Assembly: GCF_002214385.1 (NCBI RefSeq)
Contig: NZ_CP014855.1
Span: forward strand, 1,116,001-1,180,000
Length of the DNA stretch: 64,000 nucleotides
Source of the DNA: Thermococcus gorgonarius
GTDB lineage: Archaea; Methanobacteriota_B; Thermococci; Thermococcales; Thermococcaceae
Direction: 5' to 3'
Position 1 is the stretch's first letter, and every line of letters begins with the position of its first letter. The notes under the pieces are model-generated. The model was not told the origin of the DNA and searched no databases. It was given only the letters and a program-made list of their open reading frames with translations. This document shows, piece by piece, positions 18,613 through 35,014 of this stretch. The position numbers and the translations under genes were made by a program.

Positions 18613-18645
18613 CTTTGAACTTTCAATGCGTAACGGGTGGTGCCA

Positions 18646-19524
18646 ATGGGCAAAATGGAATACAGGGAGGAAAAGCTGGCTTACGGGATGCTCTTCCCAA
18701 TGCTCGCGTTCGTCATCCTGTTCATAGTCATTCCAGTAATCGGTACCTTCTGGATAAGCCTTCATCGGGACGTAACGTTCATACCAGGCTTTAAGTTCGT
18801 TGGGGTGAGGAATTATATTCTCGTGCTTAAGAAGCCGGAGTTCTGGCACTCTCTTATGGTCACCGTCGCGTTCTCGCTTGTAAGCGTTACTCTGGAAACG
18901 ATGCTAGGGCTCATCTTCGCCCTTATCCTGAACGAGGAGATAAAGGGCAGGGGGCTCCTGAGGGCGATTGTACTCATCCCCTGGGCCGTGCCCACCATAA
19001 TCTCTGCCAGGACGTGGGAGCTAATGTACAACTACAGCTACGGCCTCTTCAACTGGATCTTCTCACAAGTTGGCCTAGGAGCCATCAACTGGTTCGGAAC
19101 GCCAATAAGCGCCTTCTTCGCGGTTGTTTTTGCAGACGTATGGAAAACGACGCCCTTTATGACCCTGCTTCTCCTAGCTGGTCTTCAGGCCATCCCAAAG
19201 GACACCTACGAGGCGGCAATCATAGACGGCGCCTCAATGTTCCAGAGGTTCTGGCACATAACCATTCCCCTCCTAAAGCCGGTTCTCATAGTCGCAGTGA
19301 CACTCAGAACAATAGATGCACTCAGAGTCTTCGACATAATCTACGTTCTCACCGGCGGCGGGCCGGGAGGAGCCACTACCTCAATATCTCTCCTAGCATT
19401 CAACTACTACAACCTCGGTGACTACGGTGTGGGGTCGGCAATCTCAATCATCACGTTCCTAACCGTTCTCAGCTTCACGGTAGTCTACCTGAAAATCGGC
19501 CGCTTCCAGGAGGGGTTGAAATGA
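18646..19524 (+). CDS. malF: Trehalose/maltose ABC transporter permease MalF
   Basis: A 292-residue permease with six hydrophobic segments and an EAA loop EAAIIDGASMFQRFWHITIP. ATG 18646 is preceded by GGGTGGTGCCA; earlier GTG codons are inside that site. It overlaps malG by 4 bp. It forms the membrane channel with malG. The ATPase partner is not encoded in this operon. Confidence 0.93.
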   Translation: MGKMEYREEKLAYGMLFPMLAFVILFIVIPVIGTFWISLHRDVTFIPGFKFVGVRNYILVLKKPEFWHSLMVTVAFSLVSVTLETMLGLIFALILNEEIKGRGLLRAIVLIPWAVPTIISARTWELMYNYSYGLFNWIFSQVGLGAINWFGTPISAFFAVVFADVWKTTPFMTLLLLAGLQAIPKDTYEAAIIDGASMFQRFWHITIPLLKPVLIVAVTLRTIDALRVFDIIYVLTGGGPGGATTSISLLAFNYYNLGDYGVGSAISIITFLTVLSFTVVYLKIGRFQEGLK

Positions 19525-20357
19525 ACGAAAAAGGGCTAAAGAGGATCATGATCATTATAGGGACCACCCTGATGGTGTTAATCTGCCTCTTCCCGTTCGT
19601 GTGGATGGTAGTGATCTCCTTCACGAAGGACGCCACCTTTCTGGGCTCCTCGTACGTACACTTCCAGTTCACGATTAACAACTACAGGACGGTTCTAAGC
19701 GATCCCACGCTCCACTTCCTCGACTACTTTAAAAATAGCGTGATAATAGCGACCCTCGTCACGGTGGTTACCGTAACAATCTCCGCGCTCGGAGCCTACG
19801 CTGTCTCACGGATAAACTTCAGGGGGAGAATGGCAGTTCCAATATTCGTGTTAGGCCTTTCGATGTTCCCCCAGATAAGCCTCGTCGGTTACCTCTTCAA
19901 GTTCATTGAGAGGCTCGGCTGGATAAACACGTACAAGGCCCTGTTCTTCCCGTACGTGGCGTGGACAATGCCCCTGGCCCTCTGGATACTCCTGAGTTAC
20001 TTCACCCAGCTTCCCAAGGATCTGGACGAGGCGGCCCTTATAGACGGGGCCTCAAGAATACAGGCACTGTACAAAGTCATTATACCCCTCTCCGCGCCGG
20101 CCTTATTCTCAACGGCCCTGCTGGTGTTCATAGCTGCCTTCAACGAATTCATGTTTGCCCTACTCTTTACGACGGACTACCGTGCCAGAACAGTCCCCGT
20201 TGGCATAGCCCTCTTCCAGGGCGTCCACGGTGAGGTACCCTGGGGGAACATAATGGCGGCCTCGGCCATCTCCACAATTCCGCTCGTGATACTGGCACTG
20301 ATATTCCAGAAGTATATAGTAAGCGGACTGACCGCTGGAGCATTGAAAGGAGAGTGA
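19521..20357 (+). CDS. malG: Trehalose/maltose ABC transporter permease MalG
   Basis: A 278-residue permease of normal MalG length with about six membrane helices and the EAA loop EAALIDGASRIQALYKVIIP. It overlaps the malF stop by 4 bp and is followed by treT after 9 bp. Unlike the maltodextrin MalG in this window it has no large external insert. Confidence 0.93.
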   Translation: MNEKGLKRIMIIIGTTLMVLICLFPFVWMVVISFTKDATFLGSSYVHFQFTINNYRTVLSDPTLHFLDYFKNSVIIATLVTVVTVTISALGAYAVSRINFRGRMAVPIFVLGLSMFPQISLVGYLFKFIERLGWINTYKALFFPYVAWTMPLALWILLSYFTQLPKDLDEAALIDGASRIQALYKVIIPLSAPALFSTALLVFIAAFNEFMFALLFTTDYRARTVPVGIALFQGVHGEVPWGNIMAASAISTIPLVILALIFQKYIVSGLTAGALKGE

Positions 20358-20366
20358 GGTGAGAAC

Positions 20367-21605
20367 ATGTTTGAGGTTAAGAAGTTTGGAGGAGAAGGAA
20401 AGAAACTCCAAGACTACGCCAAAATAACGGGAGAGGAAGCCCTAGAAAGAATCCGGGAAAAAGCTGAGCTGCTTGAAGGAAGGAGCCTGGCCCACGTTAA
20501 CTCGACCTCCTTTGGCGGGGGAGTGGCGGAGATACTCCACAACCTAGTCCCCCTGATGAGGGATGTCGGCCTCGACGCAAGGTGGCTCGTTATCGAGGGA
20601 CCGGATGAGTTCTTCAACGTAACCAAAAGCTTTCACAACGCCCTCCAGGGTAACAAGGAACTAAGACTCACGGAAGACATGAAGAACCTTTACCTCAAGA
20701 CCAATGAAGAAAACGCCAAGGACTTCGATTTGAGCTCTTTCGACTATGTTGTGATTCACGACCCACAGCCTGCGGCCCTGATAGACTTTTACGAAAAGAG
20801 GCAGCCCTGGATCTGGAGATGCCACATAGACCTGAGCGACCCCAACGAGGAGTTTTGGAACTTTCTGAGAGAGTTCGTTATTAAATACGACAGGTACATC
20901 TTCCATATGGAGGACTACGTCAGAAACGACCTCAAAAGGGAGAACGTCGTTATAATGCCCCCCTCCATAGACCCGCTGAGTGAGAAGAACATGGAACTCG
21001 AGGAAAAAGAGGTACTGAAGATCCTGGAGAGGTTCGACGTCGACCCGGACAGGCCAATACTCACCCAGGTAGCCAGGTTCGATCCATGGAAGGGGGTCTT
21101 CGATGCCATAGATGTGTATAGGAAGGTGAAAGAGAAAGTCCCGGACGTCCAGCTGCTCCTGGTTGGAGTCATGGCTCACGACGACCCAGAGGGGTGGGTC
21201 TATTTCGAGAAGACACTGAGGAAAATAGGAGAGGACTACGACGTCAAGGTGCTCACCAATTTGAACGGAGTGCACGCAAGGGAAGTGAACGCATTCCAGA
21301 GGGCCAGCGACGTGATTCTTCAAATGTCCATAAGGGAGGGCTTTGGCCTAACTGTTACGGAGGCAATGTGGAAAGGAAGGCCCGTTATAGGAAGATCTGT
21401 CGGGGGGATTAAACTCCAGATAGTGGACGGGAAAACGGGTTTCCTTGTGAAAAGCGTTGAAGAAGCTGCTGAAAAAGCGCTCTACCTCCTAAGGCACCCA
21501 GATGTGGCGAATGAGATGGGGGCAAATGGCAGGGAGCGGGTCAGGGAGAACTTCATCATAACAAGACATCTTGAGAGGTACCTCGACCTCCTAAACTCTT
21601 TTTAA
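20367..21605 (+). CDS. treT: Trehalose glycosyltransferring synthase TreT
   Basis: A 412-residue GT4 glycosyltransferase. TreT reversibly makes trehalose from NDP-glucose and glucose, and in this operon probably turns imported trehalose into glucose and NDP-glucose. The GT-B fold is visible in VNSTSFGGGVAEILHN (acceptor side) and the E-x7-E donor motif EGFGLTVTE near residue 325, followed by GRPVIGRSVGG. ATG 20367 follows GAGGTGAGAAC, 9 bp after malG. The same gene order occurs in the TM operon of T. litoralis and P. furiosus. Confidence 0.92.
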   Translation: MFEVKKFGGEGKKLQDYAKITGEEALERIREKAELLEGRSLAHVNSTSFGGGVAEILHNLVPLMRDVGLDARWLVIEGPDEFFNVTKSFHNALQGNKELRLTEDMKNLYLKTNEENAKDFDLSSFDYVVIHDPQPAALIDFYEKRQPWIWRCHIDLSDPNEEFWNFLREFVIKYDRYIFHMEDYVRNDLKRENVVIMPPSIDPLSEKNMELEEKEVLKILERFDVDPDRPILTQVARFDPWKGVFDAIDVYRKVKEKVPDVQLLLVGVMAHDDPEGWVYFEKTLRKIGEDYDVKVLTNLNGVHAREVNAFQRASDVILQMSIREGFGLTVTEAMWKGRPVIGRSVGGIKLQIVDGKTGFLVKSVEEAAEKALYLLRHPDVANEMGANGRERVRENFIITRHLERYLDLLNSF

Positions 21606-21633
21606 ACCCTTTACTTTATAGCCGGTGATGACG

Positions 21634-22659
21634 ATGGAGGTACCTCCACAACTCGCACAGGCCCTGAACGGGATAGGCTTCACAAAATACGAGACCCTGA
21701 CCTACTGGACGCTCCTGGTTTACGGCCCCAGCACAGCCAGGGAGATCTCCTCCAAGAGCGGGGTGCCCTACAACAGGGTTTACGACACCATATCCTCCCT
21801 GAAGAGAAGAGGATTCGTTACCGAGGTTGAAGGGAAGCCCAAAGTGTACGTCGCTTACTCCCCCAGGATAGCTTTTCTGAGGTTCAAAAGGGAGCTGGAT
21901 GAGATAATGGCCCAGTTTGAAGAGGCCCTAAAGGATGTAAAACGCGAGGAGGAAAGGCCCGCCATATGGAGGAGCCGAGACTTCGAAGAGGCCCTTGAAA
22001 TGTTCAGGGAGTCCCTCTCCTCAGCCGAGAACGAGGTTATAGTTGTAATTCCAAGCGAGTTCTTTGATCCCATTAAGGAAGATCTCATAGGAACGTTTGA
22101 AAGGGGGGTGACTGTCTCCATATACACCGATGAAACTCCCGATGTCTCCGAGTTCAAAGGCCACGGAAACCTTTTCCTCAGGAGATTCTACAAGCTCAAC
22201 CACATAGTGGGTATGGTTGATGGAAGGGAAGTGATAACCGTCCAAAACGTGGCGTTCAACCCCCGCAACCCGCCGGCATTCAAGTCCACGTACCCGGAGA
22301 TAATCTTCTCCCAATACAGCCTTATAATAGAAATTTTCAAGGAATCAAAGCTGGAAAAGGAGGTTCTCAAAAATCCCAGCGACCTAAGATTCTTCGCCAT
22401 GTTCCACGCGGCGGATCTGGTTAAAAGACACTTGAAGGACAGCCAGATAAACGCGGTGATCTGGGGGAAGAACGTCAAAACAGGAAAGGAGGAAATCCTC
22501 CAGGGAATGGTCGTTGGATACACGCTCTCCCTCAAGGAAGCCATAAACAACATCCATGTGGAGACTGAGAGGGGTGTTGTAAAAGTCGGAGGAATGTTCG
22601 CAGTAGTCGAGGACTACGCGAGCACGGATATACGGCTCGGACTTGTTCCTTTGCAGTGA
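21634..22659 (+). CDS. trmB: TrmB, repressor of the trehalose/maltose operon
   Basis: A 341-residue regulator. An N-terminal winged helix ([36 protein letters not shown]) is followed by a coiled coil and a C-terminal sugar-binding domain. In P. furiosus TrmB represses the TM operon and is released by maltose or trehalose. ATG 21634 has GGTGAT before it. The gene lies 28 bp after treT, so it represses its own operon. A malK gene normally follows trmB in P. furiosus; here glgA follows instead. Confidence 0.92.
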
Positions 22660-24046: not shown

Positions 24047-24405
24047 CGCCACCCGTACTCAGCCAAAAACTTCCTTTTCAATCTTTTTATCGTCCCCGAA
24101 ACGCCGAGCGTTCTGAATATTGCCCGCGAACCGTTTACTCGAGTAACCAGCGTTAGAGCGAAGCGGAGCTCTTCCACGTGCTTCCTGTCCACTCTGACTA
24201 TCCCGGTCTGGCTTTTCTCGTCGAACTTTATGAACCAAGGCTTAGCCTTAGCGGAGCCGAGGACACCGAGTGTTGAAAGGCTCGCCTCCCATATCGCTCT
24301 CTTTATCTCGTCCTTCGTGAATGCCCTCTCGCCGATGACCCGGAAGGCTATGTAGCGGTGCTTGTCCCTCAACGTCGGCGGCAGGTACTTCGGCTTCTCC
24401 CTCAT
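24043..24405 (-). CDS. rnp2: Ribonuclease P protein component 2 (Pop5 homologue)
   Basis: A 120-residue protein of the archaeal/eukaryal Pop5 family, a subunit of RNase P that helps the catalytic RNA trim the 5' end of tRNA. Family marks are the N-terminal [18 protein letters not shown] and the central [19 protein letters not shown] 24405 follows GAAGGTGTGA. It is convergent with glgA (4 bp overlap) and divergent from the radical SAM gene. Confidence 0.92.
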
Positions 24406-24469
24406 CTTCACACCTTCACGGATTTGGCCACCAACCTTTTTAAGCCATGTCCTAAGGTGGGTTAGCGAG

Positions 24470-25564
24470 GTGAGGACTTTGGTCTGGGAGACGCCTTACT
24501 TTTCATACGCCGTGAGAGATCTTCCTAAGGGCTGTCAGCTCTGCGTTAGGGGCGAGAAGCTCGTCCTCTTCACCACCGGTGTCTGTCCAAGGGACTGCTT
24601 TTACTGCCCTCTCAGCCCGTGGAGGAGGGGGGACGTAGTTTACGCCAACGAGAGACCGGTTAAGAGCGCTGAAGACGTTATCGAGGAGGCCCTCCTGCAG
24701 GAGGCAAAGGGGGCAGGTGTTACAGGAGGAGACCCGCTCGCGAGGCTTGACCGAACTGTGGAATACATAAAACTCCTGAAGGAGAACTTTGGCGAGGACT
24801 TCCACGTCCACCTCTACACCACCGGCGCGCTGGCAACAAAGAAGAACCTCGAAAAGCTCTACGATGCCGGTTTAGACGAGATACGCTTCCACCCTGACCT
24901 GTTCAACCCCAACTCAAAGCTCTTCAAGGTTGAGATAGAGAACATAAAGAACTCCTTCGACTTCGACTGGGACGTTGGGGGCGAGATTCCCTCAATTCCG
25001 GGGCAGTTCGAGAGGATGAAGTGGTACGCCGAGTTTCTCGATAAGCTCGGTGCTAAGTTCCTCAACGTGAACGAGCTTGAGTTCAGCGAGATGACTCTCA
25101 AGACCCTCCTCGACATGGGTTACCAGCCGGTAAGCGACGAGAGTGCAGCCATAAAGGGCTCCCTTGAGACCGGCCTAAAGCTCCTTGAATGGGGCGAGGA
25201 AAACACCTCCCTGAGCTACCACCTCTGCACGGCAAGGCTGAAAGACGCCGTCCAGCTCAGGAACAGGCTGAAGAGAATGGCAAGGAAGGTTGTTAAACCT
25301 TACATGGAGATAACCGAAGAGGGGACGCTCCGCTTTGGAATAGCTGAATACGATGACCTCGACGAGCTCTACAGCTTCCTCGTGGAAGAGGCAGAGGTTC
25401 CGCCCGAGTGGCTCTACATCAACCGAGAGAAGGGCCGGATAGAGATGCCAGAGGAAGTTGCGGTTGAGCTGGCAGAGGCAATTGAAGGCGATGTTAGGTT
25501 CTTCATCGTGGAAGAGTACCCGACGTGGGACAGGCTGGAGGTAGAGAGGGTTCCGCTTCCCTGA
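24470..25564 (+). CDS. Radical SAM protein (COG2108 type)
   Basis: A 364-residue radical SAM enzyme. The [4Fe-4S]-binding motif is CPRDCFYC, in the spacing C-x3-C-x2-C, preceded by a further cysteine pair in GCQLC. The protein is related to pyruvate-formate-lyase activating enzymes but its substrate is unknown. The longer open frame starts before the TATA-like run CTTTTTAAGC (24436-24445), so I take GTG 24470. It is transcribed alone. Confidence 0.85.
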
Positions 25565-25669: not shown

Positions 25670-26446
25670 ATGAGGGTCTTCATCAAGGACTACTTAATCC
25701 CGTGGCTGTTGTTGATCATGGTGTGGGTTGCAATCTGGATTTTCGTTCCAGGGGAGGAGAAAAACCTCTCGCTGCCGAACGTCCTCTCGGTTCTCGTCCT
25801 CCTTCCCTTATTCCTCCTCGTGGCCCTGTACTTCGTTGGAAAGACTCTCGAACGCTACGGCTACTCGCGAAAGGACGTTAGGAGGCTTCCAGAGATAATC
25901 GAGAAAACCCACGGGAGGCTCTACCTGTCCAAGGAAATCTTTGATACCATTGGATGGGCGCTCATTTTCTGGGGACTGTTTTCAACCGTCATTTTCATGA
26001 CAGAGGGTCCCCTGTGGGGAGTGGCCAACGCCGTGGCGATGTTTGCGTGGATATTTGCGTTCTTTGTCCTGCTCGTCTCGATGGTAATCTGGGTGTTGGG
26101 ATTTCTTCCTGCCCTCTACAAGCTCCTCACCGGTAGGGAGCTTAACAGAGATTTTCTTGTTGAGATGATGAAGCTCAATCTCGTTCTCACGGCAATCCTC
26201 ATTGTGGTCCGGCTCATTGCTCTCCACGTTGGCGACGTCTCCGCTCCCCACTACGTCATGGAGCTAATAGCCTTCGGCAGAAACGACCGCGTTGTGAATT
26301 CTCTCTTCGAACTCTCTGCTTTAAACTTCCTCTTCGGGCTGGCCGGCCTTTATGGGCCGAGAAAAATCGGAAAAGCAACCGCTTTGCTCTTAACCCTTAT
26401 CGTCTTCGGCCAGCTTTGGGTTACCTGGGGGTTGCTGTTCGGTTAA
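25670..26446 (+). CDS. Polytopic membrane protein, paralogue 1
   Basis: A 258-residue protein of unknown function with about seven membrane helices. A charged cytoplasmic segment after helix 2 contains LERYGYSRKDVRRLPEIIE. The same layout and a similar segment recur at 27792-28606 (broken) and 28638-29405, so this is a local three-member family. C-terminal NSLFELSALNFLFGLAGLY matches the other two. ATG 25670 has no clear ribosome-binding site and lies about 25 bases after GTTATTTACC, so it may be leaderless. Confidence 0.75.
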   Translation: MRVFIKDYLIPWLLLIMVWVAIWIFVPGEEKNLSLPNVLSVLVLLPLFLLVALYFVGKTLERYGYSRKDVRRLPEIIEKTHGRLYLSKEIFDTIGWALIFWGLFSTVIFMTEGPLWGVANAVAMFAWIFAFFVLLVSMVIWVLGFLPALYKLLTGRELNRDFLVEMMKLNLVLTAILIVVRLIALHVGDVSAPHYVMELIAFGRNDRVVNSLFELSALNFLFGLAGLYGPRKIGKATALLLTLIVFGQLWVTWGLLFG

Positions 26447-26556
26447 GGGAAAGCGTTAGTTATGTCGGGCACTATTCACGGACATGAGTGGATAGATACC
26501 CCAAGGAGGAGCCGGGGGATGAACTCTGAGATATCAGCTTGCGAGGTGGTATTCAA

Positions 26557-27516
26557 ATGAAAAAGGGAGGATATCCCCTTCTGAACTTTTTTGTCGGAAC
26601 TCTCTTCCTGACAATCCTGTTTCGCTATGCACTATCGCTTTCGTTTGGAAAAAGCCTCTCCTTTGCGGTTATTTTGGCGCTTCTCTACACCTCGGCCCAC
26701 GTTTTCTGGGAAAAGTCGGATAAATGGAGAAAGTCGGGACTTTTAAAATCCAAGGGCGCGAGGTATCTCATCTTCTTCCTGAGCTCGTTTGGGTTTGCCC
26801 TTCTCCTATTTGGGCTTATGTACCTGGTCTTTACAAAACCGGGAACTTCGTTCGTTTCCCTCGTCAAGGGGCTCGCCGTTCTCTTTGCAGTAGGCTCCTC
26901 CCTGATGTTCCTTGCCTCAATGTTTTATAACAGGAACAGAACACCTGAAAAAATCACATATTCCTGGCGGAACTTTCTAAGGGAGCTTTCAGCGTCAATC
27001 CTCCTATTCACGATTGCCTACTTCTCCGGTGTTAGTTTGGAAAAGAGTGCTTCAATGGCACTTTATGTTTTTGTTGCTGCCAGCTGGTACTACTCCACGA
27101 TGGCCCACAGGTACGTGATACCCGAGCAGATACTTAAACTCAGGGCAGTCATCAACTTCGCGGCAATTGCCTCCGGCTTGTACCTCTTCGTGATTGACAA
27201 CGTGCTCATAAGTGGATTAGCGGGGGCACTTTTTGCCGTTGCCGAAGAAAAAGACTACTGGATAACTAGGAAGCTTGTAGAAACTGGACTGTTGAAGAGA
27301 AGATACGCCGAAAGTGGGGCTGGAGGTCTGTTTTATGCAGTCTCATATGGGTTTGGAGCCATGGTGGCTTTAATGGTGGTCACCGGAAATTGTAACGCAT
27401 CTTTCATCAGGGACTTTCTGCTAACGATGTTCAGGCTGTTGTACCTGTTCACGGCGATTTTCCTTCCCTTCGGGACGTTTCTCGGGTGGGCAAGGCTGAA
27501 AGTTCACGGTGAATGA
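26557..27516 (+). CDS. Polytopic membrane protein of unknown function
   Basis: A 319-residue protein with eight or nine hydrophobic segments, short basic loops and no recognised motif. It does not resemble the flanking paralogues. ATG 26557 is preceded by GAGGTGGT. It lies 110 bp after paralogue 1. No function can be proposed. Confidence 0.65.
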   Translation: MKKGGYPLLNFFVGTLFLTILFRYALSLSFGKSLSFAVILALLYTSAHVFWEKSDKWRKSGLLKSKGARYLIFFLSSFGFALLLFGLMYLVFTKPGTSFVSLVKGLAVLFAVGSSLMFLASMFYNRNRTPEKITYSWRNFLRELSASILLFTIAYFSGVSLEKSASMALYVFVAASWYYSTMAHRYVIPEQILKLRAVINFAAIASGLYLFVIDNVLISGLAGALFAVAEEKDYWITRKLVETGLLKRRYAESGAGGLFYAVSYGFGAMVALMVVTGNCNASFIRDFLLTMFRLLYLFTAIFLPFGTFLGWARLKVHGE

Positions 27517-27518
27517 AG

Positions 27519-27550
27519 TGGAAAATGGACTTTTGTGTTCTTTTGCGTAC
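27519..27550 (+). repeat. Intergenic repeat, copy 1
   Basis: TGGAAAATGGACTTTTGTG and the following TTCTTTTG resemble 29550-29576 (four differences in 27 bases). Both copies lie downstream of membrane-protein genes in this region. Confidence 0.5.
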
Positions 27551-27791
27551 TTTATTCTAGACTGGCATTGTAAATGGAGCAAAAGGAGAAACGTGCTCTG
27601 CTGGATGTTCGGAGACACCGAAGAGACTTTATGCGAGTAAATGTGAAATATTGGGAAGCGTTTGTGCAGATGCTTGTGATGCAGTTTTAGCTCCAATGAT
27701 TTGTCCTCGGATTTGTGACATGGTATTCTCATAGTCTTGAGTTCATCAATCTTTTTAATTTTCAGAATCAGGACAGTGTGAGGGAGTTAAA

Positions 27792-28606
27792 ATGAAATCT
27801 GGAAAAAGATTGGTAATAGAGGCTGTAACAGTCCCACTAGTAGCATGGGTAGTTATCTGGATGTTTCTCTATGTGCATCCAATCCCCAATATTCGGCGTG
27901 AGAATTTCAACGCTTCCTGGCTGATTACGGCGGTAGTTTCTCTCTTCCTTGTACTGGCTTTTATTGGCCTTGTACTCAAAAGGCGCCTGAGAAAGGCAGG
28001 TTTTACCGACTTAAAATTTAAAGAGCTTCCCAAAGTTCTTGAGAAGGTTAACCCAGAGATTATCAGTGATTTGATGTCAGGAATTTTTCGTGCCATTTTA
28101 ATATGGGGTGCTTTTAGTTCTGTAGTTCTGATTAATGGCCCCGAGAAGGGAATAACCCTTGCTATGGACTATGCGTTGGTGTTTATAACTGTCGGACTTT
28201 TGTTGATTGTCTCTATGGTAATATTACTTATTTACTTATGGACATTCCTTCGATACTCTATGAAAGTTTAAATGAAAGCTTAACTGGAAAACGGCTCTCG
28301 CCCATCTTCAAGGAAGTTCTGCTGATTTCACTGGTTTCCGGGGGCTTTCTGGCCCTTTTAGGGTTTGTGTTCTCACATCCTGGGGCCTCAGAAATTGGAG
28401 CATTTCACTCTCTCTTAAAATTCTACGTAAACGGGGACCTACATAAGAACCTTCTGTTGCTTTCTGCTCTGAACGCTCTTTACGGCCTTGTCGGAATTCT
28501 AATCCTGCCCCGGAGAAGAAGGCTTGGCCTCTTAACTCTTCTAATGATTGCCCTGGCCCTTATTCCCCTCGTGATAAAGGTTTTTATCCAACTGCACTCA
28601 TTGTAG
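27792..28606 (+). pseudogene. Frameshifted membrane protein, paralogue 2
   Basis: Two overlapping frames together make one homologue of the flanking paralogues. The first (27792-28271) gives the N-terminal helices and the cytoplasmic segment FKELPKVLEKVNPEI. The second (28238-28606, reading frame displaced by one base) gives ILYESLNESLTGKRLSP and SALNALYGLVGI, matching paralogue 1 ALYKLLTGRELNRD and SALNFLFGLAGL. The break lies near 28215-28250. A one-base deletion explains it. No classical slippery heptamer is visible. It could be a true pseudogene or a sequencing error. ATG 27792 follows GAGGGAG. Confidence 0.75.
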
Positions 28607-28637
28607 TTTGGATTTATCAAAAACCCTGGTGGTCTCC

Positions 28638-29405
28638 ATGAAGGGGAAAATTATCTTTAAGATTTTCATTTTCCCTGCGGTGCTCTTCACGGCGCTGTTT
28701 GGCTTCACCTGGGCGAAACTCGGCGTCATGACCCGTGAATGGGCTCTCATTACGGCACTTCTTTTTGTTCTCGTGGTGGGTTCAATGATCTTCTTCCTCG
28801 CCCGCATTCTGGAGAAGCACGGATACAGGAAAAGTGACATCAAGCGAATTGAGGAGATTCTTGAGGAGCACTGGGATGAACCGTGGTATTCAGGATACCT
28901 AAAGCACGACGTACAGGAATGCATAGCCCATCACCTCATTATCTGGGGACTTCTCAGCACGTCTCTTCTGTGGTTTCAAGATGTTTTCTTCGCCATCATG
29001 GCTTTAGTTGGTTTGGTTTTTCTCATGGTGATAATGTATCCCGTCTTTGTAACTATGGTAGTTTGGATTCTGGCTCTACCGTTGTACTTTCTCAAGAGTA
29101 GAAGGGCAGAGGATGCCTTTGAATTCATCGGTAAAACATCCCTTGTCACAACCCTCGCGATTCCCATTATCTGGGCCGTTTCCTCTTACGTCTCAACCAA
29201 AAACTACCCGGAAGACGTTCTTAGGATGTTCAACGCCGTGGTTAGAAACGCCGAGGGGTTTTTGCTCCTCTCAATCCTTAACACACTCTTTGGCTTTTCA
29301 GGGGTCTATCTCTCGCGCAGGGTTGGGAGGAGAGTTCTCGCGATTGTTCTGCTCTCACTTGCAGCGGCTATGCTCTTCATCGTCTGGAGCGTTGTTAAAA
29401 TTTAA
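28638..29405 (+). CDS. Polytopic membrane protein, paralogue 3
   Basis: A 255-residue membrane protein with about seven helices and the segment LEKHGYRKSDIKRIEEILEE after helix 2, followed by HHLIIWGLLSTSLLW, which aligns with paralogue 1 (IGWALIFWGLFSTV). C-terminal SILNTLFGFSGVYLSRR also matches. ATG 28638 is preceded by GGTGGTCTCC. It lies 31 bp after the broken paralogue. Function unknown. Confidence 0.75.
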   Translation: MKGKIIFKIFIFPAVLFTALFGFTWAKLGVMTREWALITALLFVLVVGSMIFFLARILEKHGYRKSDIKRIEEILEEHWDEPWYSGYLKHDVQECIAHHLIIWGLLSTSLLWFQDVFFAIMALVGLVFLMVIMYPVFVTMVVWILALPLYFLKSRRAEDAFEFIGKTSLVTTLAIPIIWAVSSYVSTKNYPEDVLRMFNAVVRNAEGFLLLSILNTLFGFSGVYLSRRVGRRVLAIVLLSLAAAMLFIVWSVVKI

Positions 29406-29581: not shown

Positions 29582-29683
29582 TCTTTTACTCTTGCTTCTT
29601 TCATTTCGTTCTCGTCGTTTTGTTATTGTTGGAAATTGAAAACTTTACGAAAAATAAAAGCATTGGTTAATCCAATTAGTAGA

Positions 29684-29700
29684 AGGAAAAGTTTATATAG
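29684..29700 (+). promoter_or_regulatory. BRE/TATA promoter of the cysteine-rich precursor gene
   Basis: GGAAAAGTTTATATAG is a strong purine-rich BRE plus TATA box, 44 to 53 bases before ATG 29744, with GGGTGGTG as ribosome-binding site. Confidence 0.7.
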
Positions 29701-29743: not shown

Positions 29744-30748
29744 ATGAACTGGAGGAAGACCGCGTTCGGAGTTTTCCTCATTGTCATGGTGTTGAACCTG
29801 CAGTTGATTGCGGCTCCTCAGGCCATGGCAATGAGCACGAACAACTCCAGCATAACCTTCCGCAGGGCGGTAGTTGCATGGTACGATGAGAAGGGCAAAC
29901 TTCAGATGAACGTGACTTGGATCAACAAAGTTGTGAACTTCACCAACCTGACTAACGGCTGTCCGCTCCACGAGTCCAACGTGACTCCTAAAGTGAACGT
30001 TTCAGTGGTTACCTTATACAACATCACGGAGGAGAATGATCAGCTGCTGTTCTTCAGGCTGAACTTCTACAACAGCACGTTCAACTACACGATGTACGCG
30101 CTCGTTTACAGGGCAGAGAGGAGTCAGTACAACTTCACTTTGATCACAAGGATCCTCACAGACAAAAAAGGAGGGTACTGGCTCTTTGTTAATGACATGA
30201 ACATTGCTCCAAAAGATGAAAACAGAATTCTACCTGTTGGCGACGTTATTGTTGTTAAGAATAACCTTACTCTCTCGGAGTACTACTGGACTCTTAATAA
30301 GGTTCTCATGGAGCTTAGAAAGCACGATGAGACGAAGTGGATCTGGGACAGGAGCGCCTACGAGCTGAGGCACTTATCACACCTAGTGAAGCTTAAACTA
30401 CCAGAATATAATATCTACAAAACAGTGGGGATAAGTATTACTATGGATGATTCAGTAACTGCCTGTGTTTTCCCACTGAATTCTCTTATTTCAATAAAGT
30501 TTATATGCACTCAACCAGAAGCCCCCTCCTGGGTTATAGCCGGCGCCTGTTGCGCCTCTTTGTATGCAATAGTTATTGGCTGTGCTTCAGCATGTGTGCT
30601 CTCTGGTGGGGCCGCATGTATAGCTTGTATTGCGGGAGGTGTCTTCGCATCCTGGGCTTCACTCTCGGGATGCTATGGTTACTGCCCCTCAATGCAGGTA
30701 TGCGTTTATGTGCTCTGGTTTAAAGTCACATGTGGAACATTATGGTGA
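29744..30748 (+). CDS. Secreted precursor with halocin C8-like ten-cysteine C-terminal domain
   Basis: A 334-residue protein. A signal peptide covers about residues 1 to 29. The middle (30-235) is hydrophilic with many N-glycosylation sequons (NSS, NVT, NFT, NLT, NTT-like). The last 75 residues (260-334, from APSWVIAGACC) hold ten cysteines in a Gly/Ala-rich, hydrophobic context. Mature halocin C8 is also about 75 residues with ten cysteines and is released from a larger precursor whose N-terminal part gives immunity. The likeness in size, cysteine count, order and composition suggests an archaeal bacteriocin. Cysteine spacing is not identical. Three small membrane-protein genes follow. ATG 29744 has GGGTGGTG. 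Confidence 0.65.
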   Translation: MNWRKTAFGVFLIVMVLNLQLIAAPQAMAMSTNNSSITFRRAVVAWYDEKGKLQMNVTWINKVVNFTNLTNGCPLHESNVTPKVNVSVVTLYNITEENDQLLFFRLNFYNSTFNYTMYALVYRAERSQYNFTLITRILTDKKGGYWLFVNDMNIAPKDENRILPVGDVIVVKNNLTLSEYYWTLNKVLMELRKHDETKWIWDRSAYELRHLSHLVKLKLPEYNIYKTVGISITMDDSVTACVFPLNSLISIKFICTQPEAPSWVIAGACCASLYAIVIGCASACVLSGGAACIACIAGGVFASWASLSGCYGYCPSMQVCVYVLWFKVTCGTLW

Positions 30749-31026: not shown

Positions 31027-31155
31027 CCCTATAAACGATTGTATTTCCCTGCTCTGAATTAGTCAAGAATGTTGTGATTGTTGCATTAGGCGTAACAATT
31101 TTTGTTTTCCCCAATTCCCCAAATTGAAGACGGGAAACTAAACGGGGGTGAAGCC

Positions 31156-31458
31156 ATGATCCCTGTCGAATACCTCCTCGGAGCTGGTTACGGTATTTCG
31201 CTGTGGTTGATAACATCTGGACTTCTAAAATACATTAAAGGGCCGAAGAGGTTCGCCTTCGTGCTTGAAAAAGATACGTTGAATCCCCTTCCAGAGGAGG
31301 AGCTTCCGGAGGATGTGAGGGAGTATAAAAACAGGCTTGAAGAATCATTTAAGCGGAGTGTACTTGAACGGACAAGAAAAACCGCCATTGTGGAGCTATT
31401 GATTGGGGTTGTTCTGTTAATCGTTACTGCGGCTATCACTTTAGCACTGGCGACATAG
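31156..31458 (+). CDS. Small two-helix membrane protein
   Basis: A 100-residue protein: an N-terminal membrane helix, a charged cytoplasmic stretch (about 28-75, rich in Glu and Arg) and a C-terminal membrane helix. ATG 31156 is preceded by GGGGGTGAAGCC; the upstream in-frame ATG at 31102 has no such site. Function unknown. It belongs to the run of small membrane proteins after the cysteine-rich precursor. Confidence 0.65.
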   Translation: MIPVEYLLGAGYGISLWLITSGLLKYIKGPKRFAFVLEKDTLNPLPEEELPEDVREYKNRLEESFKRSVLERTRKTAIVELLIGVVLLIVTAAITLALAT

Positions 31459-31496
31459 GCTATAAGCGTCTATTCCCATCAGCCGGAGGTGAAAAA

Positions 31497-31814
31497 ATGA
31501 ATACGCTGTCTAAACTAATTCCAATCCCATTCATGATCTTGGCGGTTGCATACGGCATATATGCAAAGGTGCTGTTACCCATCTTCGTTGGGATAGGGGG
31601 TATAGTGCTTTATGCTCTAAGCCTTAAAAGAGACGAAGAGGCCTCGGTAAAGCTAACGGGCCTCGTTGCCATGTTTTCCTCAATCTTTGCGCTCTGGGAG
31701 AATCCGGTTAGATATCTTGCAATAGTGGGCATTTTCCTGCTGGCAATCCTTGAATTCTCGGCGATGATGAGAAGAAGAGAAATAAAAAGGGCAACAGGTG
31801 GAGTTCAAAATTAG
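31497..31814 (+). CDS. Small multi-helix membrane protein
   Basis: A 105-residue protein with about four hydrophobic segments and a basic C-terminus (MMRRREIKRATGG). ATG 31497 follows GGAGGTGAAAAA. It lies 38 bp after the preceding small gene and overlaps the convergent ileS gene by 4 bp. No recognised family. Confidence 0.65.
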   Translation: MNTLSKLIPIPFMILAVAYGIYAKVLLPIFVGIGGIVLYALSLKRDEEASVKLTGLVAMFSSIFALWENPVRYLAIVGIFLLAILEFSAMMRRREIKRATGGVQN

Positions 31815-34800
31815 CCCTCCACCTTCTCAATCCCTATCTTTGCTTCAACCTCTGGCCACTCAACGACGTAGCCCTTTGCTTCTTCAAACCTAACCTCAAC
31901 TGCTCTTGTCTCTCCCTTTATGTAGTCGAGGTTCTCGCTGAGAAGCTCGCGGTTCTCGTCGGTGGTCTCTATCGTGACCACTATCCTGTCGTTGACGTCG
32001 AGGTCAAGCCTCTTCCTCATCTCCTGTATCCTCCTCACAAACTCCCTGGCGAGGCCCTCAGCCAAAAGCTCCCTCGTTAGGGTCTTGTCGATGAACACCT
32101 TTCCGCCCTCGAACTCCTCAGCAACGAGGAAGTCCGGAAGCTTCTCCTCGACGGTGAGGTGCTCCCTCGTGAGGTGGAAGGTCTTGCCCTCGATTTCAAC
32201 GTCCATCTCGCCCTTCTCGTAGAGTTCCCTGCCGTGTTCGTTTATCCACGCGATGACGAGCTTTGCGTCGCCCTTGAACTCCGGTCCAACTTTCGCGAAG
32301 TTCGGCTTTATGATGAGTTCGCGCTCGACCCTGCCGACCTTTACCTCCTTGGCGTTGAGCTGGTCCTTCAGCAGTCTGTTCAGCCTCTCGACGGCTTTCT
32401 TAACGGTCTCGTCCTCGGTCTCGATGATTATCCTCCTCACAGGGTAGCGGAGCTTTATCTTCGCCCTCTGCCTCGCTGATGAACCTGCCTCGACGATTTT
32501 TCTTACAACGTCCATCTCGCGCTCAAGCTCTTCGTCTATGGCCTTCTCATCGGCTTTTGGCCAGTCGAGCATGTGAACGCTCTCCACTCCAACGAACGGC
32601 CTCATGAGGTTCTGGTAGATCTCCTCGGCGATGTAGGGCGTAAACGGCGCCATGAGCCTGAGCAGAACGTCGAAGACCTTCCAGACGGTGTAGTAGGCCG
32701 CCAGCTTATCGGGGTCGTCGCCCTCAACCCACATGCGCTTCCTGATGAGCCTGATATACCACCTGCTTAAATCCTCGACGACGAAGTTGTAGATGGCCCT
32801 CGTTGCCCTCGTCAACCTGAAGGTCTCTATGCCCTCGGTAACCTCACCTATGAGGCTGTTGACCCTGCTGAGTATCCATTTGTCCTCCTCGCGGAAGGGA
32901 AGCTCCTCCGGCTTGAGCTTCGTCGGGTCGAAGCTGTCGAGGCTCATGTAGGTTGCGCTGAGCACGTAGACGTTCCACAGTATGTTGAGCATCCTCTTGA
33001 CCTGCTCAAGGCCCTTCCAGCTGAAGCGGAGGTTCTCCCACGGGTTGGTGGCCCAGAGCATGTAGAACCTGAACGGGTCTCTGCCCTCCTTCTGGACTAC
33101 CTCCTCCGGGCGGATTATGTTTCCAAGGCTCTTGCTCATCTTGTCGCCCTTCTCGTCGAGGACGTAGCCGTGCATGGCAACGGCCCTGTAGGGGACGGTG
33201 TCGAAGGCTATAACCGAGGCAGCCTGCTGGGAGTAGAACCACTTGGTGACCTGATCTTCACCCTCGACTATGAAGTCAGCGGGCCAGAGCTTCTCGAAGA
33301 GCTCCTTGTTCCTCGGGTAGTCGAGGGAGGCCCAGCTCGCTATTCCGCTGTCGAACCACACATCCACGACGTCCTTAACGCGGCGCATCTCCTTGCCGTT
33401 AACCTTTATGATGAAGGCATCAACGTAGGGCCTGTGGAGGTCTTCCGGCCCGAGCTTCTCCTCTATGACCTTTAGCTTCTCCTCGTAGCTCTCTGGCAGC
33501 TCTATCCTCTCGCCGTTGACCTCTATTGCCACGCTCTTTTCAACAAGCTCCTTAAAGCTTCCAACGACGTATATCTCGCCGTCCTCGCTCTGCCATATCG
33601 GGAGCGGAATTCCCCAGTAGCGCTGCCTGCTTATGACCCAGTCGCCGCTGTTCATGACGCCGTTGTCGTAGCGAACCTTGACCCACTCAGGGTACCAAAT
33701 TACCTTCTCGTCGTTCTCCTTGATTATCTTGTCCTTGACCCTGCTGACCTTGAGGAACCACTGGTCGGTTGCCCTGAATATGAGCGGCGTCTTACAGCGC
33801 CAGCAGTGCGGGTACTTGTGCTCTATTTCTCCAGCTTTCACGAGGTAGCCCTTCTCGGTGAGGTGCGCTATTATCTCCGGATCGGCGTCCTTGACGTAGA
33901 CACCCTTCCAGAAGCCCTCGGTGTAGCGTCCCTCGTCGTCAACCGGGCTGTAAACCGGCAGGCCGTATTTCTGACCAACCTCGAAGTCCTCCTCACCGTG
34001 GCCGGGGGCTGTGTGGACTAAACCGGTACCATCCTCCAGCGTTACGTGCTCACCGAGGATAACCCTGTGAGCCCACTCGTACTTCTCGCGGAACTCCTTT
34101 TGGGCTGGATACTCGTCCATGAGGACGTGGACGTAGCGGATGCCCTCAAGCTCCTCACCCTTGAAGGTTTCAACGATTTCACCCTTTACACCGACCTCGG
34201 TCAGAACTCTCTCAACCAGGGCCTTCGCTATTATCCAGTACTCCTCGCCCTTCTCGGTCTCGACCCTAACCTTGGCGTACTCGTACTCGGGGTGGACAGC
34301 TACAGCTAAGTTGGCCGGCAGTGTCCACGGTGTCGTCGTCCAGATGAGGAGGTACTCGTTCTCCCTGCCCTCAACAGGGAACTTCACGTAGATGCTCGGG
34401 TCTTTCCTGAGCTTGTACTCGCCGCGAACCTCGTGTTCAGCGAGGGCAGTCTCACAGCGCGGACACCAGTGGAGAACGCGCTTGTCCTTCTCCAAGAGCC
34501 CCTTCTCCCAGGCCCTCTTGAGCGTGAACCAGCCCGATTCGATGTACTCGTTCTTTATGGTCATGTAGGGGTTGTCCCAGTCCATCCAGACGCCGAGCTG
34601 CTTGAACTGCTCGGTCATGATTTTGAGGTTGTTGAGGGCGAACTCCTTACACTTCCTTATGAAGTTCTCGACGCCTATCTCGGTCTCTATATCCTTCTTG
34701 GTCTTAAGTCCCAGAGCTTGCTCGACCTTGACCTCGATCGGGAGGCCGTGCATGTCGAAGCCCGGCTGTCTGCGGACGTTGTACCCTTGCATCGTCCTGA

Positions 34801-35014
34801 AGCGTATCACCATGTCCTTGATGATCTTGTTCCACGCCGTGCCAAGGTGTATAGCACCGCTGACGTAAGGCGGCCCGTCGAGGAAGTAGTATTTGGGCCC
34901 GTTGGCTCTGCTGGCTTTGACCTTCTCGTAGACCTCGTTCTCCTTCCAAAAGCGCTCTATCTTCTCCTCAAGCTTCCCTGGACTGTACTCCCTAAACTCC
35001 GGCTCTTTAATCAT
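31811..35014 (-). CDS. ileS: Isoleucyl-tRNA synthetase
   Basis: A 1067-residue class I synthetase that charges tRNA-Ile. The HIGH-type motif is GAIHLGTAW near residue 55, and KMSKS is present as DKMSKSLGN near residue 600. The editing domain has [19 protein letters not shown]. Zinc-ligand type cysteine pairs are CPRCETAL and CWRCKTPL. Length and C-terminal domain are of the archaeal/eukaryal kind. ATG 35014 follows GGAGGGG. The unit appears monocistronic. Confidence 0.97.

Follow-up and report, generated by a model that had tools for sequence, protein, structure and literature searches.

The protein encoded at positions 29744-30748 of the window (the whole 64,000-nucleotide stretch of Thermococcus gorgonarius DNA analyzed here) is very probably one allele of a polymorphic archaeocin system, that is, a modular disulfide-rich bacteriocin together with its cognate immunity protein. 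This reading is built on direct observations: the leader of the precursor is conserved, its payloads are exchanged, payload and downstream partner are paired one to one, an array of partner genes surrounds the precursor in the window, and halocin C8 domains are carried by sibling leaders. The earlier note on this DNA had proposed a bacteriocin precursor of halocin C8 type; it missed the many payload types present on the same leader, the immunity candidate downstream of each type, and the array in the window. The features of the locus are displayed in Table 1.

Table 1. Features of the probable archaeocin precursor locus and its flanks (window coordinates)
Feature	Position	Strand	Remarks
Radical SAM gene	24362..25564		Array flank
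Orphan immunity candidate, type-B family	25670..26446	+	34% identity, tblastn; ~6 hydrophobic segments
Orphan immunity candidate, type C	26557..27516	+	67% identity, E 2e-134, tblastn
Orphan immunity candidate, type B1	27792..28606	+	81% and 76% identity, tblastn; frameshift near 28240-28260
Orphan immunity candidate, type B2	28608..29405	+	78% identity, tblastn
TATA element TTTATATA	29692..29699	+	~45 nt 5' of ATG, within conserved upstream stretch
Polymorphic archaeocin precursor (probable)	29744..30748	+	Intact ORF, 334 aa; signal peptide, conserved leader and type-A Cys-rich payload
Predicted signal peptide, residues 1-29	29744..29830	+	Hydrophobic segment 6-24
Conserved leader, residues 30-235	29831..30448	+	From alignments, hinge counts and model; beta-rich
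Type-A payload domain, residues 236-334	30449..30745	+	From alignment and AlphaFold2 model
Cognate type-A immunity candidate, 88 aa	30760..31026	+	Three hydrophobic segments; homologue directly downstream of type-A payloads
Type-H immunity gene remnant	31041..31139	+	56% over 34 aa, tblastn
Orphan immunity candidate, type I	31156..31458	+	96% identity, tblastn
Orphan immunity candidate, type J	31497..31814	+	44% identity to gene downstream of L055 payload, tblastn
ileS	31811..35014		Array flank

The precursor gene and its product

The reading frame is uninterrupted from ATG to TGA. At the N-terminus of its product there is a single hydrophobic segment (residues 6-24) closing on APQAMA, which indicates a signal peptide, and no twin-arginine motif was found in this N-terminus (MNWRKTAFGVF). 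The 12 N-X-S/T sequons all lie in the leader, in the first two thirds of the protein, and the C-terminus has none. The signal peptide and the glycosylation-rich N-terminal part described in the earlier note are both borne out. The leader ends in a G-x5-D junction with an invariant aspartate, D235.

Behind this junction, the type-A payload carries 12 cysteines over ~99 residues, including C241 and C257, and all of them are kept in the five same-type homologues (5/5), so that a lack of cysteine conservation, named in the earlier note as a refuting outcome, did not materialize. The chance of at least 12 cysteines per 109 residues is p ~2e-11 under an assumed background of 0.7%. The ten cysteines previously counted in the last 75 residues are exact as a count, but the natural unit is this larger domain, and the closeness to the cysteine number of halocin C8 was due to the placement of the 75-residue cut.

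The AlphaFold2 model of the payload (pLDDT 79, pTM 0.66) shows a strand pair at each end with hydrophobic helices between them. According to this medium-confidence model, the C-terminus is probably not an integral membrane domain, an outcome that would have refuted the proposal of the earlier note. The leader is beta-rich in its model. Foldseek searches with the full-length model (pLDDT 57) and with the payload model gave no match below E 0.001, and the payload has no fold match in the PDB.

Concerning the upstream region, TTTATATA is a good archaeal TATA element, present in most of the 12 relatives compared, with CTTTTAAG in its place in a few. The ~100-150 bp located 5' of it (window 29600-29700, TCGTCGTTTTGTTAT..GTTGGAAATTGAAAA..TACGAAAAA..) are unusually conserved among copies at different chromosomal sites, which suggests that these copies may have a regulator in common.

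Spread of the leader family

Leader homologues were found in 30 of 94 Thermococcales genomes belonging to three genera, with up to seven matches per genome, some of them broken. The leader profile search gave no match beyond these three genera of one family, and neither a PDB sequence search with the same profile nor tblastn against a plasmid collection returned any match. A scan of contigs with near-exact peptide patterns recovered one relative only. A full-text literature search, whose coverage did not extend to a 2019 mBio survey of archaeal toxins, yielded no description of the family. That survey of archaeal toxins and halocins reportedly expanded the halocin C8 family. It should also be noted that frameshifted or truncated copies are frequent (L045, L046, L048, L060, L070 and L073); in some, for example, the leader is broken into two parts. 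This suggests that copies are gained and lost quickly.

Payload types and their exchange

In the alignment of 48 copies, the leader is conserved from residue 1 to ~235, with a mean column identity of 71% in a diverse set, and D235 is present in 45 of 45 copies. Past this residue the sequences fall into ~15 Cys-rich C-terminal types, which were assigned manually on the alignment. Their cysteines number between 6 and 20, and the count is even in 44 of the 45 payloads. The 6-Cys type is the only one recognizably related to type A of the window.

Unrelated payloads occur on leaders up to 91.8% identical, and near-identical 20-Cys payloads of type C are found on leaders just 52% identical. At the DNA level the similarity ends sharply at D235 (~codon 235): between L032 and L058 the identity is 80-93% over the first ~700 nucleotides and no more than background from there through the tail and the downstream gene, while L036 and L048, both of type C, present the opposite pattern, with tail and downstream gene ~60-96% alike and leaders much less similar. 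In the maximum-likelihood tree of the leaders, well-supported branches force at least two changes for each payload type that has more than one member; the leader of the window, for instance, and the leaders of L053 and L054 belong to different clades despite the same payload type. The exchange of payloads between leaders is real, and on these sequence comparisons what is swapped behind the leader is the payload and the putative immunity gene as one cassette.

Downstream partner genes

Each precursor gene is directly followed by a short ORF for a membrane protein whose family tracks the type of the tail. When the downstream ORFs were compared all against all, 93 of 107 same-type pairs were homologous versus 0 of 883 different-type pairs; with permuted type labels (2000 permutations, related sequences being treated as independent) the mean was 10 homologous pairs and the maximum 27. 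Ten of the 14 same-type exceptions are pairs across two type-B sub-types, whose partners make two matching sub-families, and the other four come from the wrong ORF having been picked for L037. The partners are ~90 aa long in type A, 265 in type B (16-Cys), 325 in type C (20-Cys) and 115 in type E; they belong to many unrelated families and some have just 62-92 aa.

In the window this position is occupied by the type-A candidate, which simple gene calling missed because the antisense ORF is longer. A homologue of its product is encoded directly 3' of all seven type-A payload genes (7/7). The type-A gene is also found without a type-A payload in seven other genomes. Moreover, the genome of the window has a second copy, 93% identical, at ~143 kb (G000:C1:143411-143668; L109:5382-5669), next to a gene distantly related to a different immunity type and with no precursor in reach.

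A one-to-one covariation of peptide and membrane protein would likewise be produced by pherotypes, in which the tail would be a secreted peptide signal, the partner its specific receptor, and orphan receptors a means of eavesdropping. This is very unlikely, since the partners come from so many unrelated families, some of them so small, with no Pfam signalling domain found in any of them and no kinase or regulator found moving with the cassette, and since sibling precursors bear halocin C8 domains.

Relation to halocin C8

Five sibling payloads match the halocin C8 model TIGR04449 above its curated NCBI cut-off of 24 bits: L032 (33.1 bits), L062 (45.2), L058 (39.6), L035 (41.9) and L059 (41.9). 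These matches lend support to the proposal of the earlier note that the protein may be a secreted bacteriocin precursor with a C-terminal Cys-rich payload. The assignment of the window C-terminus itself to the halocin C8 type is not supported by sequence. The profile search against the halocin C8-like family, which had been set as its test, gave no match: TIGR04449, positive on Haloferax volcanii as a control, found nothing at E<=10 in the whole protein or in the C-terminus alone, and a profile comparison by hhalign between type A and a set of 10 halocin C8-like payloads returned a probability of 0.3%. The 12-Cys pattern of type A is also distinct from the cysteine framework of halocin C8, and the window payload has no detectable relation to a tested bacteriocin.

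Furthermore, a second, unrelated leader family of ~262 aa with an ECPCC motif carries halocin C8-like tails followed by matching downstream immunity candidates. It was matched in 15 of 94 Thermococcales genomes, some weakly, and includes L085:940-1734 (G072) and L086:1498-2283 (G070), both adjoining a methylthioadenosine phosphorylase gene, as well as copies in G018, G054, G044 and G039. Its downstream genes match partners of the first leader, that of L085 resembling type J and that of L086 the partner of L035. The most economical reading of these sequences is that halocin C8 would be one of many payloads on a common carrier.

The layout of the window precursor is that of halocin C8: an export signal, a long N-terminal part and a hydrophobic Cys-rich peptide at the C-terminus, and sibling leaders bear TIGR04449 itself. 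It could be asked whether the protein is simply a member of that family, with its N-terminal part as its own immunity protein, as the N-terminal half HalI is in haloarchaea (PMC11509114). We regard this as extremely improbable. As far as sequence goes, membership is refuted for the payload, which has 12 cysteines in ~99 residues and fails both TIGR04449 and the profile comparison. As for immunity, the leader is independent of the payload type, the same whatever payload it carries, and therefore can hardly give payload-specific immunity; specificity apparently tracks the downstream gene, which co-varies with the payload. Unlike HalI, the immunity function here apparently resides in a separate, payload-specific gene. 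The export route also seems to differ, since ProC8 is Tat-exported (PMC11509114) and the window leader has no twin-arginine signal. HalC8 is freed by cleavage from the C-terminus of its precursor by an unidentified protease (PMC12893001) and is heat-stable (PMC10058572).

The array of orphan partner genes

The tblastn queries that revealed the array were the genes located directly downstream of payloads of other types. The reference for the type-C gene lies directly 3' of the 20-Cys payload in L036, L044, L048 and L077, and that for the type-I gene directly 3' of the halocin C8-domain precursor L062 (genome G072). The window membrane genes of types B, C, I and J and the type-H remnant are predicted to confer, or to have conferred, immunity to the peptides of rivals.

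Elsewhere in the order, genomes carry different payload types in this interval between the radical SAM gene and ileS, and at least three more fixed chromosomal sites host the same kind of cassette elsewhere.

These orphan genes bear on another explanation. Thermococcales are known to have VARTIG, a hypervariable module accompanied by membrane proteins that co-vary with it, for which adhesion or self-recognition has been proposed (PMC8416519). Its C-terminus, made hypervariable by recombination, and its occurrence in the same order resemble what is described here. The precursor could, like VARTIG, be a polymorphic surface protein for self/non-self recognition or adhesion, with a displayed tail, the downstream membrane protein as its anchor or partner and no killing, and a beta-rich, sequon-rich leader does look like that of a surface protein. 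A role in surface recognition or signalling would yield a similar genomic covariation. However, VARTIG is a large immunoglobulin-domain protein (PMC8416519), whereas no Pfam domain, Ig included, was found in the window precursor, whose payload is Cys-rich. The payloads of the family are short and have hardly any sequons or none, and several of those on sibling precursors are halocin C8 domains. Stand-alone partners are kept in arrays without a payload, which immunity explains better than anchoring. The halocin C8 domains of siblings and the retained orphan partners favour antagonism, and we consider surface recognition unlikely.

Proposed mechanism and comparison with polymorphic toxins

If the precursor is an archaeocin, it would be exported via the general secretory route, and the conserved glycosylated leader would hold the payload soluble and inactive or display it outside the cell. 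A protease encoded outside the locus would cut near the invariant D235. The locus contains no dedicated protease or transporter, which counts against this reading, as does the lack of any PDB fold match or of a relation to a tested bacteriocin for the window payload. The product released would be a disulfide-stapled hydrophobic peptide of ~99 residues that may attack the cytoplasmic membrane of closely related strains in which the matching small membrane protein is missing, while the type-A immunity protein would shield the producer. Since every partner is a membrane protein, analogy with bacterial bacteriocins suggests a membrane target. For every member of the family, secretion, glycosylation, cleavage, killing, the membrane target and protection are predicted features.

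Polymorphic toxin systems have a conserved N-terminal delivery part, an exchangeable C-terminal toxin and an immunity gene immediately downstream, with orphan immunity arrays and exchange driven by recombination (PMC3482391). The locus has the same conserved N-terminus with exchangeable, unrelated C-termini, what appears by sequence to be a type-specific gene paired immediately downstream, and orphan immunity candidates in arrays (window 25670-29405 and 31041-31814). Toxicity of the C-terminal domain is suggested only by sibling payloads being homologous to halocin C8. The differences are that the payloads in this family are hydrophobic peptides of small size, rich in disulfides, and the partners integral membrane proteins, and that the carrier has only ~235 residues, with no known trafficking domain found in it.

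On a slight balance of probability, hyperthermophilic archaea use at least two unrelated secreted leaders as universal carriers for ~15 kinds of disulfide-rich peptide, several with undescribed folds. On this view the peptides are exchanged along with dedicated membrane immunity genes at a few fixed chromosomal sites, where immunity genes also accumulate and so record which rivals have been encountered. Intermicrobial warfare in these organisms is almost uncharacterized. If the proposal is true, it supplies ready-made predicted toxin/immunity pairs that share a single leader, in an order for which genetic tools exist, accounts for a fast-changing set of nameless membrane genes and offers a source of heat-stable disulfide-rich peptides, and swapping payloads on the constant carrier becomes a way of finding what an archaeal bacteriocin acts on. 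A further suggestion is that immunity may be separable from the leader, unlike in the one textbook archaeal example.

Genomic surroundings

Searches of the window proteins with Pfam, NCBIfam and PADLOC gave no significant match besides the flanking radical SAM enzyme. A sactipeptide-like peptide modified by this enzyme was considered. The radical SAM gene is confined to this chromosomal site, and other sites with the same precursor family lack it; this possibility was rejected because the gene belongs to the site and not to the cassette. On the far side of it, window 18637-22659 encodes proteins named by inspection as permeases of a sugar ABC transporter, a trehalose synthase-like glycosyltransferase and a regulator resembling TrmB. 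They make up a sugar-uptake cluster of the usual Thermococcales kind, adjoining the locus.
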